DNA of 41,960 nt. Source: a virus. Below the pieces are notes generated by a model, which was not told where the DNA came from, ran no database searches, and worked only from the letters and a program-made list of their open reading frames with translations. Below are positions 2,168 to 21,607 of this stretch, one piece after another (the stretch's first letter is position 1; each line of letters begins with the position of its first letter). The translations under genes and the position numbers were made by a program. Location: the IMG/VR virus record IMGVR_UViG_3300046538_000089, positions 1-41,960 of that record. The stretch is one strand, 5' to 3'.

Positions 2168-2466
2168 GCTCGAGCCACCGACACGATCGCGTCGGACCGG
2201 GATGTGACGGACAGGTCCACGTCGGTGTCGCCTGCGCACCAGACGCTCATCCAGGAGCCCTGCATCACGAGGGATGCATGCCCGTCACCGGGGGTGACGG
2301 ATGTTCCCTTGCGGGCGTACACGGGGTCGTCTCCGTCATGGGCGATGACCTGCAGGTTGCTGTTCCCGCGGTCTTCCATGACGACGTGCACGGTGACGGT
2401 GGTGCCGGCGGTGACCGGGAACTCGTACGCGCCTTGCTGGTCAGCGGTAATGGTGTGGTCTGCCAT
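2164..2466 (-). CDS. Small beta-rich protein (100 aa)
   Basis: The 100-residue protein consists of alternating beta strands: ADHTITADQQGAYEFPVTAG, then TVTVHVVMEDR, then VDLSVTSRSDAIVSVARA. It looks like a single immunoglobulin-like or jelly-roll domain, with no signal peptide. It overlaps the coiled-coil gene by 4 bases, so the two are probably made together and may assemble on the particle. No family is identified. Confidence 0.75.
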   Translation of the reverse strand: MADHTITADQQGAYEFPVTAGTTVTVHVVMEDRGNSNLQVIAHDGDDPVYARKGTSVTPGDGHASLVMQGSWMSVWCAGDTDVDLSVTSRSDAIVSVARA

Positions 2467-2491
2467 GAGCGCTCCTGATCAACGCTGGTGG

Positions 2492-2713
2492 TTAGTCGAC
2501 GGTGATGCCGAGGTTGCGGATGGTTTCCACGACTTCGTCGCTGTACATGCGGAGGCCGCGTGCTTCCCATGCCGCTTCAACCTGTTCGGTGGTGAAGGTG
2601 AAGTCGGCGTGTGAAGTGTTCTGGGCGATGAGGGTGAGCTGCTGTTCGATGCCGGCGAGCAGTTTCAGCTTGGCGCTGCGGTACTCGCCGAGGCTGAGGT
2701 CACCCGCGGTCAT
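2492..2713 (-). CDS. Small helical unknown protein (73 aa)
   Basis: A helical 73-residue product, with an N-terminal stretch SAKLKLLAGIEQQLTLIAQN likely to form an amphipathic helix or coiled coil. The start ATG overlaps the stop of the membrane peptide gene 2710-2817 by 4 bases, showing translational coupling. The family is not recognised. Confidence 0.7.
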   Translation of the reverse strand: MTAGDLSLGEYRSAKLKLLAGIEQQLTLIAQNTSHADFTFTTEQVEAAWEARGLRMYSDEVVETIRNLGITVD

Positions 2714-2817
2714 CGGTTGCGCCTGTTCAGCAGCTGAGCGAGGGACATCCCGATGCTCATGCCTCCGGTGAAGATGGCGACGAGCGCGAGGACGAGCGGA
2801 GCGACGTCGATCGTCAT
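2710..2817 (-). CDS. Single-span membrane peptide (35 aa)
   Basis: A 35-residue protein with one hydrophobic segment (APLVLALVAIFTGGMSIGMS) and a basic tail NRRNR, so it is predicted to span the membrane with the C terminus inside. It overlaps the flanking genes by 4 bases on each side (ATGA), which strongly supports its reality despite its length. The role is unknown; small phage membrane peptides can act in lysis or exclusion. Confidence 0.65.
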   Translation of the reverse strand: MTIDVAPLVLALVAIFTGGMSIGMSLAQLLNRRNR

Positions 2818-3020
2818 GCTGTCACCGGTTCCGGGTCGCCGTACGTGGTGGTCTTGGTCACCGTGGCGAGGGTCACGTCGGGTTCGAGCATCGCTGCACG
2901 CATGTTCGACTCGATGCGGTGGAGTTCGTTGACCGCTTCGGCCTGGTCGACGACGTACGAGCTGATCGCTTTCCCGCCACGAGCGACGGTGTACACGGTC
3001 TCCTTGATGGGCTCAGGCAC
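2814..3020 (-). CDS. Small unknown protein (68 aa)
   Basis: The GTG start at 3020 is preceded by GGGGAGGG, a good ribosome site. The 68-residue product begins PEPIKETVYTVARGGKAISS and continues with a helical middle (AEAVNELHRIESNMRAAML). No motif is recognised. A longer reading of the same frame back to 3305 exists, but it would overlap the well-supported gene 3013-3231 completely. Confidence 0.65.
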   Translation of the reverse strand: MPEPIKETVYTVARGGKAISSYVVDQAEAVNELHRIESNMRAAMLEPDVTLATVTKTTTYGDPEPVTA

Positions 3021-3231
3021 GTTTCCCTCCCCGATCGAGGTACGGGTCGAAGGTGAACCCGATCGTGGGGTGCCAGCTGGTGTCGCGTTCGTGGAAGCCG
3101 CTGGTGTCGTGGAACTCGCCGCCGGCACCGAATCGGTTGACGGCGGTCGTGACGATGGGGGAGAGCTTGCGCTCGGTCCGGCGGGTCTCCGCTCGGGCCT
3201 GCTGGCGTTGCAGCATGCGGGATGCTCGCAT
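3013..3231 (-). CDS. Small basic protein (72 aa), first gene of the left group
   Basis: AGGAGGCGACG followed by ATG gives a near-ideal ribosome site. The product starts with a strongly basic helix (RMLQRQQARAETRRTERKL) and ends in an aromatic, acidic half (HPTIGFTFDPYLDRGG). It is the first gene after the 750-bp non-coding stretch, so a promoter for the 3231-108 group should lie upstream. No family is recognised. Confidence 0.7.
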   Translation of the reverse strand: MRASRMLQRQQARAETRRTERKLSPIVTTAVNRFGAGGEFHDTSGFHERDTSWHPTIGFTFDPYLDRGGKRA

Positions 3232-3832
3232 CGTCGCCTCCTCGGTGGTGGTCGGCCGGTCTCGTCTGGGTTCCGCGGTGCCAGCAGCGGGTTACTCAGG
3301 GTCACGGCCTTGAAGGGTCCTCGTGCTCGCGCCGCGATCGTTAGGTTCGCTGTGCGGCCGGTCCCAGAGCGAGGTGCGGGATCGGCGGCTAGGTGCGGTG
3401 CTGATGCGTGTCGGCTGGCAAGAGGAAGTGTGGGGGCACAGCAGAGCGGGCAGAGGCGGCCGAGGGGTGTTTTAGGTCCTCGTCAGGGCGCATGCCCGCT
3501 CGCTGGCGGGGCGGTAGCTTTGCTCGGGTTCACCTGGCGGGCCACTGCATGAAACCGCTCAGCCGGTCTACTGGAACGCAGCGCCGAACCGGCAAAGGCG
3601 ACTGCGAGCGATGACCTGATCGCCTATCCCCGTAGCTGCACGTGGAAGACCGGCCCAACCAGTCTTGTCGGCGTTCAGGGACCTTTGACGCGTGAGCGTC
3701 CTCCCGAACCATGCGGAAGTCGAACCGCGGTTGTTGTCGCAGGCGCGGTGTGCTGCGGGTAGGTCACCACCACCATGTCGCCGGAGCCAACCCGAAGTGG
3801 CTCCGACAGCCCCATCCCAGGAGCGCTCATGG

Positions 3833-14630: not shown

Positions 14631-14833
14631 GATGCGGGCCTCTCAGCGGGAAGTGACTGCAGCCACCTCTCACCCTCCTGCTTCGTGATCAGCGGCTTCC
14701 GCTTCGCCGGGTACACCGGGATCAGGTCACCGGACGTGATCGCGAGCTTCACCGTCGTCTCTGACAGGTCCACCGCGCGGGCGAAGTTGGGGATGGAGTA
14801 CGCGAGCTTGTCGAGTACGGGTGTGTCGCTCAT
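14627..14833 (-). CDS. xis: Excisionase-like HTH protein
   Basis: The 68-residue protein has a MerR/excisionase-type winged helix: YSIPNFARAVDLSETTVKLA forms the helix-turn-helix and IPVYPAKRKPLITKQEGERW the wing and following helix. This is the usual pattern of phage Xis proteins, which bend attachment-site DNA and direct integrase to excision. As the second gene of the leftward operon it would be made on induction. Two 12-bp repeats beside attP (20140, 20161) are candidate targets. A purely regulatory role is the alternative. Confidence 0.75.
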   Translation of the reverse strand: MSDTPVLDKLAYSIPNFARAVDLSETTVKLAITSGDLIPVYPAKRKPLITKQEGERWLQSLPAERPAS

Positions 14834-15039
14834 GCTGCGGCTCCCATCAGTTCGTGGTGGGGCCGGCCGAGCGCGGTTGCGACGCGGTCGAAGTCGTCGT
14901 AGTCGAACGGCTGCGTGCCGTTGAGTTCAGCGACGAGTGTGGGGAGCGGGATGCCGGCTGCGGCTGCGAGGTCAGCGTCGGTGCGGTTCATGGACTGCAG
15001 CGACTGCCTGATCCTCCTGGCGGTGGTTTGGCTGGTCAT
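14830..15039 (-). CDS. Cro-like HTH regulator
   Basis: The first gene of the leftward early operon. From the ATG at 15039 it has 69 residues with a short helix-turn-helix (RTDADLAAAAGIPLPTLVAE) resembling Xre/Cro proteins. The start lies 7 bases after a -10-like TAGCCT, so the mRNA is probably leaderless. A longer reading to 15075 would run through the promoter and is less likely. Divergent to the repressor, it probably acts as the lytic-side regulator of the switch. Confidence 0.75.
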   Translation of the reverse strand: MTSQTTARRIRQSLQSMNRTDADLAAAAGIPLPTLVAELNGTQPFDYDDFDRVATALGRPHHELMGAAA

Positions 15040-15077
15040 AAGTGCAAGGCTACACCGCACTAGTGACGTGTGCAAGG
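15039..15077 (-). promoter_or_regulatory. Leftward early promoter with operator-like repeats
   Basis: On the minus strand TTGCAC (15070-15075) is separated by 17 bases from TAGCCT (15047-15052), 7 bases before the ATG. The octamer GTGCAAGG occurs twice (plus-strand 15042-15049 and 15070-15077), overlapping the -10/start and the -35. A perfect palindrome CACTAGTG (15058-15065) sits in the spacer. These are good candidates for repressor or Cro operators. Confidence 0.6.
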
Positions 15078-15120
15078 TCGCACGAGGGTGCTGTGCATCG
15101 TTTTAGCCACGGGACGCTGC

Positions 15121-15133
15121 TAATGTGACGTCG
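15121..15133 (+). promoter_or_regulatory. Leaderless promoter of the repressor gene
   Basis: TAATGT (15121-15126) fits the actinobacterial -10 TANNNT and lies 6 bases before the GTG start, with no ribosome site in between. Transcription would start at or next to the start codon. The -35 region (TCGTTT, 15098-15103) is a poor match, as is common for such promoters. Confidence 0.5.
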
Positions 15134-15525
15134 TGGGTATCAACAAAGACAAGCCGCCGAGCGCGCTCAACCGTGCGATGGCAGCCGTGATCCGTGGGGA
15201 GTCCTACGCACTCCAGCTGTCACAGCAGGACATCGTGAAGAAGACAGGAATCTCCCCCGCGACCGTGCAACGGCTCATGAAGGGCGAACAGAAGTTCAAC
15301 CTCGACCAGATCGAGTCGTTCGCCGGCACCCTGGGCTTCCCCGTCGATGAACTCTGCCGCCGCGCAGTCGAGTGGCGCTCAACACGAATGTCGGAGGCTG
15401 CCCCCGACAATGTGGTCACGCTGAAGCCACGACGCGTCGAAGACATGACCGTCGAGGAGATCGAAGCGGAGAAGCATGCGGCGACCCGTGACCCCGAGAT
15501 GGACACGGACGAGCAGTTCGACTAA
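15133..15525 (+). CDS. Xre-family phage repressor
   Basis: The 130-residue protein has an Xre helix-turn-helix: LSQQDIVKKTGISPATVQRL then MKGEQKFNLDQIESFAGTLG (about residues 28-70). A short acidic C-terminal tail follows, with no LexA-like protease domain. It is divergent from the Cro-like/xis operon and followed by an ImmA-like gene, which is the ImmR/ImmA arrangement. It is therefore the probable prophage repressor, and derepression would depend on its partner rather than on RecA-driven self-cleavage. GTG start. Confidence 0.82.
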   Translation: MGINKDKPPSALNRAMAAVIRGESYALQLSQQDIVKKTGISPATVQRLMKGEQKFNLDQIESFAGTLGFPVDELCRRAVEWRSTRMSEAAPDNVVTLKPRRVEDMTVEEIEAEKHAATRDPEMDTDEQFD

Positions 15526-19419: not shown

Positions 19420-19606
19420 GCCTTCGTCCTCCTTCTCGGGCTTCCGCCCTGTCCTGTCCTCCTGTCGTGTGCAACCCAGACTCGACAGGCGGGTCTCCTA
19501 CGTCGGTGGTTGGTCGTACTGTCCACTTCTGTTCCTTCCGGTGCTTACTTCACTGGTGGGGGCGGGGGCTGATCCGTGAGCGCGGGTCAGCCCCTACTTG
19601 CTGAGG
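19420..19606. other. Intergenic region with terminator hairpin
   Basis: This 187-bp gap separates the Ea22-like gene from the integrase operon. It holds the hairpin at 19565-19594 and should contain a promoter for the leftward 19419-15905 operon. I see no convincing -10/-35 pair. Confidence 0.5.
19565..19594 (-). terminator. Hairpin downstream of the Ea22-like gene
   Basis: GGGGCTGA (19565-19572) pairs with TCAGCCCC (19587-19594) around a 14-base loop, 13 bp after the stop of gene 19607-19933. There is no U-run, but position directly after a gene supports a terminator. Confidence 0.55.
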
Positions 19607-20176: not shown

Positions 20177-20232
20177 AGAGCAACTGACTCTTAATCAGTG
20201 GGTTCTCGGTTCAAGTCCGAGGGGGTGCACCG
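20177..20232 (+). other. attP: attP core: 3' part of tRNA-Lys(CTT)
   Basis: The sequence has the end of a D-arm (AGAGC), a full anticodon arm (ACTGA-CTCTTAA-TCAGT, anticodon CTT), a T-arm (CTCGG-TTCAAGT-CCGAG) and the acceptor 3' half ending GCACC. The 5' acceptor strand and most of the D-arm are missing, so it is not a working tRNA but the identity segment used for insertion into the 3' end of a host tRNA-Lys gene. On integration the host gene is restored by this copy. Confidence 0.9.
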
Positions 20233-20302: not shown

Positions 20303-20539
20303 TCAGGCGACACGCCGAGCGGCACGATTCGCCACAGATTGCTCGGTCGTCCGCTGCACTCGGTGCGTCACGATCGGAAACTCCTGGGCGACGTCCGCGC
20401 GCTCGACGAGCCGCAGCAGCACCTGCCGGTACCTGACCCATGACACGGCGAGCTCGTTCCGGATCAGTGCTTCCTTCGTGCGGTCGTTCCGTGGGTGCTG
20501 GTCCTCGAACGTCAGGATGGCTCTCTCGTCGTCGGTCAT
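20303..20539 (-). CDS. DUF3263-like small DNA-binding protein
   Basis: From the ATG at 20539, the 78-residue protein reads DDERAILTFEDQHPRNDRTK, EALIRNELAVSWVRYRQVLL, then RLVERADVAQEFP and a basic tail. This matches the DUF3263 pattern (an acidic start, a sigma-like helix-turn-helix around a [SW]xxRYxQ motif), found in actinobacteria and their phages and thought to bind DNA. It stands alone beside attP, divergent from the plus-strand group, and its start is 6 bases after a GACACT hexamer, suggesting a leaderless mRNA expressed in the lysogen. Confidence 0.72.
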   Translation of the reverse strand: MTDDERAILTFEDQHPRNDRTKEALIRNELAVSWVRYRQVLLRLVERADVAQEFPIVTHRVQRTTEQSVANRAARRVA

Positions 20540-20545
20540 GGCTGC

Positions 20546-20551
20546 AGTGTC
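20546..20551 (-). promoter_or_regulatory. GACACT -10-like element, leftward
   Basis: GACACT on the minus strand ends 6 bases before the ATG of the DUF3263-like gene, with no ribosome site between. It matches the elements at 20606, 21066 and 21413. Position and spacing fit a leaderless actinobacterial promoter. Confidence 0.55.
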
Positions 20552-20605
20552 CGTCGGACCGCTGACACCCGCACGCGGCTCTGGACGGCGCCCACGACCG
20601 CGAGG

Positions 20606-20611
20606 GACACT
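20606..20611 (+). promoter_or_regulatory. GACACT -10-like element, rightward
   Basis: GACACT lies 7 bases before the ATG at 20619. TGGACG (20582-20587, 4 of 6 to TTGACA) stands 18 bases upstream. The extended GGACACTG is the exact inverse of CAGTGTCC at 20545-20552, making a symmetrical divergent control region. Confidence 0.55.
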
Positions 20612-20618
20612 GTTCCTC

Positions 20619-21035
20619 ATGGGGTTCAAGGAGTGGTTGGCAGGAGCCGACGAGCGGGCAGCGAAAGCGTCAGCCCGTCTCGACGAGATCAACCGGCGTC
20701 AACGGGAGACCGGGAAGTTTGCCGGCGTCTACCTGACTGACGGGATGATCGGCTGGACCGACCAGGGCCGTGCCCGCCGTGAACCCGTCACCGGGGCTCG
20801 AGCGGAAGTCGTGGTCGGTGCTGACGCGCAACGCCGCATCACCGCGACCCGCATCGTCCTCATCGGAGTGTTCGCGCTCGCGTTCCGGAAGCAGAAGGGC
20901 ACCGGGTTCCTCACGATCGAGGCGGACACGTACTACCTGGGTGTGCCGTTCCCCATCAAGGATGAGCGTGACGCTCGGGCGTTCGCGGCGAAGGTGAACG
21001 CTGCAGCACGGGCGGGCTTAACTTCGGCGGAATGA
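20619..21035 (+). CDS. PH-like domain protein, lysogenic candidate (138 aa)
   Basis: The 138-residue protein has a basic helical start (GFKEWLAGADERAAKASARL). It is followed by a beta-rich domain (EVVVGADAQRRITATRIVLI, FALAFRKQKGTGFLTIEADT, then FPIKDERDARAFAAKVNAAA) whose ending helix is typical of bacterial PH-like domains. No signal peptide is visible. It is the first plus-strand gene after attP and would lie at one prophage end, with its own leaderless promoter, so it is a good candidate for a gene expressed in the lysogen. The function is unknown. Confidence 0.68.
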   Translation: MGFKEWLAGADERAAKASARLDEINRRQRETGKFAGVYLTDGMIGWTDQGRARREPVTGARAEVVVGADAQRRITATRIVLIGVFALAFRKQKGTGFLTIEADTYYLGVPFPIKDERDARAFAAKVNAAARAGLTSAE

Positions 21036-21065
21036 AGCCGTCCGCTTCATGTCGGAGGATGCGGG

Positions 21066-21071
21066 GACACT
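21066..21071 (+). promoter_or_regulatory. GACACT -10-like element
   Basis: GGGACACT ends at 21071, 6 bases before the ATG at 21078. The only GGAGGA nearby is about 18 bases from the start and too far for a ribosome site, which favours a leaderless mRNA. Confidence 0.5.
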
Positions 21072-21077
21072 ACCCGC

Positions 21078-21353
21078 ATGCCGCAGTACCAGTGGTCCGC
21101 ACCCATCCACCCGGACCCGCCCGAGGACCAGCCGCTCGGAGTTGACGGCGTGGAGTGGTCCGAGCTCGCCCACCACGACCCGGTGTGGGTGCGGGTCGAG
21201 TTCTCCCGCACCGGGTGGCAGAAGCTCCCCGGGTTCGTTGACGCGAAGACCGACTCCATCGTCCTCGTGCAGCTAGTGCACATGGGGTTCGCCCACCGGC
21301 TCTGGCTGCCCCGTGACCGTGTCACCGTCCGGCAGCTGAAACCCCGTCGCTGA
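21078..21353 (+). CDS. Unknown plus-strand protein (91 aa)
   Basis: A 91-residue protein with a Pro-rich start (QYQWSAPIHPDPPEDQP) and a small beta-rich domain (VWVRVEFSRTGWQKLPGFVD, then HRLWLPRDRVTVRQLKPRR) ending basic. It may be an SH3-like fold. It belongs to the three-gene plus-strand group at the prophage end, and a strong hairpin follows 8 bp after its stop. The function is unknown. Confidence 0.65.
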   Translation: MPQYQWSAPIHPDPPEDQPLGVDGVEWSELAHHDPVWVRVEFSRTGWQKLPGFVDAKTDSIVLVQLVHMGFAHRLWLPRDRVTVRQLKPRR

Positions 21354-21361
21354 ACGACGAA

Positions 21362-21398
21362 ACGCGCCCCGCCACCCTCGGATGAGGGGGCGGGGCGT
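21362..21398. terminator. Strong hairpin after gene 21078-21353
   Basis: ACGCGCCCCGCC pairs with GGCGGGGCGT (one bulge), with a further CCCTC/GAGGG stem inside, giving a very stable hairpin 8 bp after the stop codon. The following ATTGG has few T residues. It separates this gene from 21425-21607, which has its own promoter-like element. Confidence 0.65.
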
Positions 21399-21412
21399 AT
21401 TGGTTCCTGACG

Positions 21413-21418
21413 TACACT
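21413..21418 (+). promoter_or_regulatory. TACACT -10-like element
   Basis: TACACT fits TANNNT and ends 6 bases before the ATG at 21425. There is no purine-rich ribosome site between, as in the three GACACT cases. Confidence 0.5.
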
Positions 21419-21424
21419 CGGCGC

Positions 21425-21607
21425 ATGGGGACGCCGATGGAACGCATCGCACGCTGGTTTGCGCACCGCAACGACCGACCGACGCAGTGCGCTTGGTGCT
21501 CAGTGCCAGTCGCCGAGGACTCTGGCAAATGGCACCGGGAGCTGCGCGAGCTCACGTGCGGTTCCGATGAGTGCGAGGAACGATCCGCGGCGCTGCAATC
21601 CTGGTGA
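21425..21607 (+). CDS. Small zinc-finger-like protein (60 aa)
   Basis: A 60-residue protein with two Cys pairs, CAWC (22-25) and CGSDEC (45-50), separated by a polar linker, forming a likely single zinc finger. The N-terminal helix is basic (MERIARWFAHRNDR). It converges on the SGNH tail gene with 1 bp between stops. It is probably expressed on its own in the lysogen from the TACACT element. Function unknown; DNA or RNA binding is plausible. Confidence 0.65.
   Translation: MGTPMERIARWFAHRNDRPTQCAWCSVPVAEDSGKWHRELRELTCGSDECEERSAALQSW

Follow-up and report, generated by a model that had tools for sequence, protein, structure and literature searches.

Leaderless-type promoters beside the attachment site of a temperate phage genome, two of which carry a damage-promoter signature

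Four genes lie to the right of the attachment site in this phage genome and each begins close behind one of two nearly identical hexamers. The question raised by the locus is whether these genes are held under one common control. The window, i.e. the whole stretch of DNA that was analysed, is an IMG/VR virus record of 41,960 bases (65.4% GC) with a temperate gene set of tyrosine integrase, HTH repressor, ImmA-like peptidase and attP. Its named protein relatives come mostly from phages of Mycobacterium, Arthrobacter, Microbacterium and Gordonia, and the host is therefore very probably an actinobacterium; a scan of bacterial genome contigs for this prophage found no carrier. Six genomes were compared, the window and five relatives, with 406 called gene starts and motif spacings of 0-24 nt counted before each.

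Geometry and conservation of the six starts

Genes and predicted -10 hexamers (window positions, strand):
14830..15039, minus: Cro-like HTH gene with leaderless geometry, first gene of the presumed lytic operon
15047..15052, minus: TAGCCT, -10 of the Cro-like gene, 7 nt before ATG 15039
15121..15126, plus: TAATGT, -10 of the repressor, 6 nt before GTG 15133
15133..15525, plus: HTH repressor gene (phrog_4583/phrog_8), leaderless geometry in the relatives examined
20177..20231, plus: attP core, the 3' part of tRNA-Lys(CTT), with a complete tRNA-Lys at the equivalent place in two relatives (G001, G005)
20303..20539, minus: gene of a 78-aa DNA-binding protein, DUF3263 (NapA-like), oriented towards attP (Pfam PF11662, E 1.7e-13)
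20546..20551, minus: GACACT, -10, 6 nt before ATG 20539 (DUF3263 gene)
20606..20611, plus: GACACT, -10, 7 nt before ATG 20619
20619..21035, plus: conserved phage protein gene, 138 aa, phrog_26783
21066..21071, plus: GACACT, -10, 6 nt before ATG 21078
21078..21353, plus: gene of a beta-rich protein, 91 aa, with a promoter type common to the DUF3263 gene
21365..21397, plus: GC-rich inverted repeat, probable terminator of the 21078 gene, just upstream of the 21425 promoter
21413..21418, plus: TACACT, -10, 6 nt before ATG 21425
21425..21607, plus: cargo ORF, 60 aa

The sequence-only reading had described hexamers ending 6-7 nt before the four att-side starts, with no ribosome site, and the same geometry at the repressor and the Cro-like gene. 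All six can be read directly at these places, and no Shine-Dalgarno sequence is found at the usual distance from any of the six starts (20539, 20619, 21078, 21425, 15133, 15039). For the Cro-like gene, the gene caller gave 14991 and the leaderless ATG is 15039. The likeness that had been drawn to actinobacterial leaderless promoters also agrees with the known -10-to-start spacing of such promoters (PMC3160421; PMC3898074). Repressor and divergent Cro-like gene are leaderless by the spacing criterion in the relatives keeping that arrangement, and Arthrobacter phage Hestia has a like geometry at two divergent genes, gp44 and gp45. A scan with the sigma-70 consensus gave no match in the att-side region. 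The immunity intergenic region (15040-15132) holds GTGCAAGG direct repeats and a palindrome, ACACCGCACTAG/CTAGTGACGTGT, which are probable repressor operators.

The DUF3263 product scores 50.7 bits against its family profile (curated cut-off 22.3), and its AF2 model (pLDDT 92) has the Mtb NapA structures 9n2g/9n2n as best PDB matches, with a best probability of 0.97, a TM of about 0.6 and E 0.2; by sequence profile, the match to NapA reaches E 2.6e-11. Mtb NapA is associated with the nucleoid and binds AT-rich DNA (PMC10665949; PDB titles). Among the six genomes the DUF3263 gene is found in the window and G001 only, and a search for DUF3263 on plasmids gave no match. The fold search for the 21078 product gave a beta-rich protein with no convincing PDB relative. 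Relatives hold unrelated genes at the place of the 21425 ORF, most with a TANNNT hexamer (TAGGAT, TAGCCT or TAGTCT) at 6-7 nt. Judged by sequence comparison, the stretch from attP to the 20619 promoter looks like a cargo exchange point.

A scan of the motifs against chance, proposed as a check on the sequence-only reading, gave a peak at spacings 6 and 7 across the 406 starts. GACACT occurs 6 and 4 times at these two spacings and once at all others (10 against 1), and TANNNT 8 and 6 times, compared with 5 across the other 23 spacings together (14 against 5). Within the window, GACACT is about 2.7-fold depleted relative to dinucleotide shuffles (11 copies, 29.3 expected), and three of the 11 copies lie 6-7 nt before the att-side starts 20539, 20619 and 21078. 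Of the 14 matches to GACACTN6-7RTG in the six genomes, 12 belong to these gene families, and reversing the pattern as a control gives 4 matches.

At the 21078 start, GACACT stands at 6 nt in the window and in all four closest relatives holding that start. At the 20619 gene it is kept in five of six copies and replaced in the other one by TAGGCT at 7 nt. The DNA similarity of L008, L009 and L010 to the window starts at 20601-20604, right at the -10 of this gene. Homologous promoters elsewhere read TAGGCT, CACACT, GACGAT, GATGAT, GAGGAT, GACGCT or CATGCT, with A2 and T6 as the invariant bases, so the hexamer behaves as expected of a -10. By this spacing and conservation, the hexamers are -10 elements of the leaderless promoter type that is ordinary in actinobacteria, with transcription starts predicted at the start codons.

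The TGTC(A/G)G element and its distribution in other phages

Upstream elements (window positions, strand):
20562..20567, minus: TGTCAG, -26 element of PafBC type, exactly 10 nt upstream of the -10 of 20539
20582..20587, plus: TGGACG, -35-like, 18 nt upstream of the -10 of 20619 (TAGACG in some relatives)
21032..21050, plus: ATGAAGC-N5-GCTTCAT, a palindrome that overlaps the -35 region of the 21078 promoter and is mostly conserved among close relatives
21050..21055, plus: TGTCGG, -26 element of PafBC type, exactly 10 nt upstream of the -10 of 21078

The -26 element, TGTCR(g), is absent at the 20619, 21425, repressor and Cro-like promoters, and T(A/G)GACG-N18 precedes the -10 of the 20619 gene in most relatives. 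The palindrome was considered as a common operator and rejected, as it is present at 21078 only and lost in L028.

The consensus of RecA-NDp promoters is tTGTCRgtg-8nt-TannnT (PMC5656591). PafBC, which uses the -26 motif plus a -10 and is activated by ssDNA (PMC11804915; PMC10609372), inserts between sigma-A region 4 and the DNA, with PafB reading the -26 motif (PMC11804915), and this promoter type reaches beyond mycobacteria into other Actinobacteria (PMC8223512). Both window promoters have TGTCR(g) and the 10-nt distance to the -10. Their GACACT has A2 and T6 of TannnT and G for T at the first base, and they are therefore called RecA-NDp-like, not strict members. If transcription starts at the ATG, TGTCRG would occupy -28 to -23, in agreement with the name -26.

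TGTCRG-N10-(TANNNT or NACACT), searched for with no start-codon requirement, has 8 matches in the six genomes (expected 0.17-0.30 per genome), and in seven the start of a DUF3263 or 21078-family gene follows at 6 nt. Across 453 kb of related phage DNA, TGTC(A/G)G ahead of a -10 and a start has 26 matches when the spacer is 10, whereas each of 17 other spacer lengths gives 0-2; the set of 26 includes near-identical homologues and thus reflects conservation, not 26 independent events. Genome G005 has no TGTCRG-type element at all, and neither does the L029 homologue of the 21078 gene. LexA-like boxes in the window are not above chance (4 matches, 3.5 expected).

The same LexA-independent damage signature is common to att-proximal or induction-related genes of other actinophages. 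Within 600 nt upstream, the strict element is found at 14 of 16 DUF3263 loci in phages (0-0.7% per locus in shuffles); the other two are Footloose, with none, and MoxS-R1, with TGTCTG instead. Several phage DUF3263 genes are located close to attachment sites or integrases. The DUF3263 gene of mycobacteriophages lies behind an ImmA-like protease gene, and it is the latter that the element, with a TANNNT -10, precedes. The ATG behind the element is in frame with ImmA in phiGD20-1 (L057 3459-3552), 93 nt (31 codons) downstream of the annotated start, and in dwieneke (L058 2420-2498), 78 nt (26 codons) downstream. Both ImmA annotations are therefore probably too long, their starts having been placed too far upstream. 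The element is also found before distant 21078 homologues (L046, L048) and remote ones (L045, L047).

A broad scan of IMG/VR, using the strict leaderless RecA-NDp pattern at the consensus spacer only, returned 59 loci. The largest product groups are ImmA-like proteases (10 loci, 5 non-redundant) and YqaJ-like exonucleases (10, 6), followed by a small unknown family (4, 4) and DUF3263 (2, 2); such clustering in few gene families would not be expected of random matches. The narrow motif TGTCGGSGG-N7-GACACT was found in IMG/VR in the four relatives only. In environmental phages of 40-56% GC, the ATG of YqaJ/RecE-like exonuclease genes follows a full RecA-NDp consensus at 6-7 nt (L062, L063, L064, L066, L069, L084, L086, L099, L114, L117), and a family of 58-59 aa proteins lies behind the full consensus in L096, L098, L100 and L112. 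A limited search of the open-access literature on PafBC with phage found no report of such prophage promoters.

Could TGTCRG instead be the operator of the DUF3263/NapA-like protein, through which it would regulate its own gene and the neighbouring 21078? The element stands before nearly every phage DUF3263 gene examined, and the modelled fold is a DNA-binding one. However, it also precedes 21078 homologues in genomes without DUF3263 (G002, G003, G004), as well as the YqaJ genes and the tyrosine integrase of L028. NapA, moreover, was crystallised on AT-rich DNA (PDB titles), and a spacing fixed at 10 nt points to an element in contact with RNA polymerase. An autoregulatory operator is thus improbable. 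The L028 integrase (2216-3435) has TGTCGG-N10-GAGGAT-N7-ATG upstream.

To the left of attP, a noncoding stretch of the window (19424-19597) is 92-96% identical across relatives. It holds an invariant aCGTCGGtg-N8-TACTGT, with one mismatch to RecA-NDp, and about 70 nt 3' of it have a very stable predicted fold (z -5.1). The stretch is a candidate small RNA or integrase arm region; an Rfam search of the window gave zero matches.

Competing regulators and the preferred reading

The sequence-only reading had favoured a common lysogenic control, in which one lysogeny-specific sigma factor or regulator would read GACACT/TACACT at the four att-proximal genes and the repressor. The hexamer type and spacing are identical at the four genes and GACACT is kept in close relatives, as such a control would predict. 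Distant relatives, however, keep only A2 and T6, and GACACT itself is not supported as the mark of a common lysogenic control. The upstream elements differ as well, with T(A/G)GACG-N18 at 20619 and TGTCRG-N10 at 21078 and 20539. The geometry does hold for all four att-side genes, but it is not confined to them and the repressor, since the Cro-like gene at the head of the presumed lytic operon has it too. Some inserted genes to the right of attP are led by a Shine-Dalgarno sequence in two relatives (G003 36239+, G005 2066+), so the leaderless geometry is no rule for every gene in that position. What survives of a shared regulator is a likely one for 20539 (minus) and 21078 through TGTC(A/G)G-N10, and it does not extend to 20619 and 21425. 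A single regulator for the whole set is accordingly quite unlikely.

Control by host WhiA, which would bind GACAC over the -10, is very unlikely. GACAC is the WhiA motif (PMC3781837); it lies within three of the four hexamers, and a GTGTC is present at the 20539 promoter as well. Relatives, on the other hand, have GACGA, GATGA, CATGC or TAGGC in its place and keep the NANNNT form. A conserved GACAC was thus not found at homologous promoters, and WhiA as a target-binding regulator was rejected; a hexamer that changes while A2 and T6 stay is poorly explained by it. GACAC is also too common to be informative alone, with 15,116 copies in S. venezuelae (PMC3781837). A reading of the hexamers as coincidental matches, or as signals for translation with no promoter function, might be argued from the shortness of six-base motifs and from promoters known from sequence alone, but is hardly credible given the sharp positional peak, the conservation in six genomes and the other -10 forms that substitute at the same spacing.

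The reading preferred here is that the hexamers belong to leaderless sigma-A promoters of several classes, two of the promoters being PafBC-dependent; its probability is put at about 0.78. The hexamers would act as sigma-A -10 elements with transcription beginning at the first base of the start codon, and the mRNAs would therefore be leaderless. In the first class (20539 minus and 21078), TGTC(A/G)G centred at about -26 and 10 nt from the -10 would replace the -35. Activated by ssDNA after DNA damage, PafBC would bridge sigma-A region 4 and the -26 element. As this layout is that of a PafBC-dependent promoter, 20539 and 21078 would be damage-induced via host PafBC, independently of LexA. The second class (20619), with its -35-like T(A/G)GACG and 18-nt spacer, probably functions in the lysogen as an ordinary sigma-A promoter. 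The third (repressor, Cro-like gene, 21425) would comprise -10-type leaderless promoters without the -26 element.

The match of TGTC(A/G)G to the PafBC consensus points to damage induction and not to maintenance of lysogeny, and suggests that the window phage listens to a host alarm other than classical SOS. The gene families involved lead to a wider proposal. It is somewhat favoured that unrelated temperate actinophage groups have independently placed ImmA-type proteases, att-proximal NapA-like and 21078-family genes, integrase and YqaJ under host PafBC, which would give a LexA-independent, ssDNA-activated programme of prophage induction and recombination. The way in which prophages of actinobacteria detect DNA damage in the host is not well defined. 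If these promoters are PafBC-dependent, they would provide prophages with a damage input that needs no LexA cleavage and has as its targets ImmA proteases, as candidate anti-repressors, together with att-proximal DNA-binding proteins and enzymes of recombination. The short signature TGTCRG-N10-NANNNT-N6-8-ATG can be searched for in other genomes and indicates where annotated start codons of mycobacteriophage ImmA genes may need correction.

Comparison with known systems

By comparison with actinobacterial (TA-led) leaderless genes, the geometry at the window starts is real and ordinary for the phylum: a -10 hexamer precedes the start codon by about 12 nt and there is no Shine-Dalgarno sequence, with the difference that three of the six window genes have GACACT instead of TANNNT. 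What is unusual is the damage-promoter signature at two of the four att-proximal genes. Mycobacteriophage Adephagia offers a phage example in P90, with a HicB-like antitoxin gene (gene 90) that is expressed in lysogens and predicted to be leaderless (PMC11373665); the gene and the phage differ from those described here, and no -26 element is described there.

RecA-NDp promoters of mycobacteria and other Actinobacteria share with the two window promoters TGTCRG and the 10 nt to the -10. The window promoters differ in being located in a phage, beside the attachment site, in their leaderless geometry and in the G for T at the first -10 base. Unlike the phage genes here, the RecA-NDp cases in the cited papers are host DNA-repair and stress genes. 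The ImmA-DUF3263 operons of mycobacteriophages have a TANNNT -10, in contrast to GACACT in the window. NapA (Rv0430) and the window protein are alike in Pfam family and fold, whereas the latter is phage-borne and att-proximal. Finally, prophage genes regulated by LexA/SOS resemble the proposed system in that both would couple phage genes to host damage, but the signal here would be a positive one through PafBC instead of the release of a repressor.
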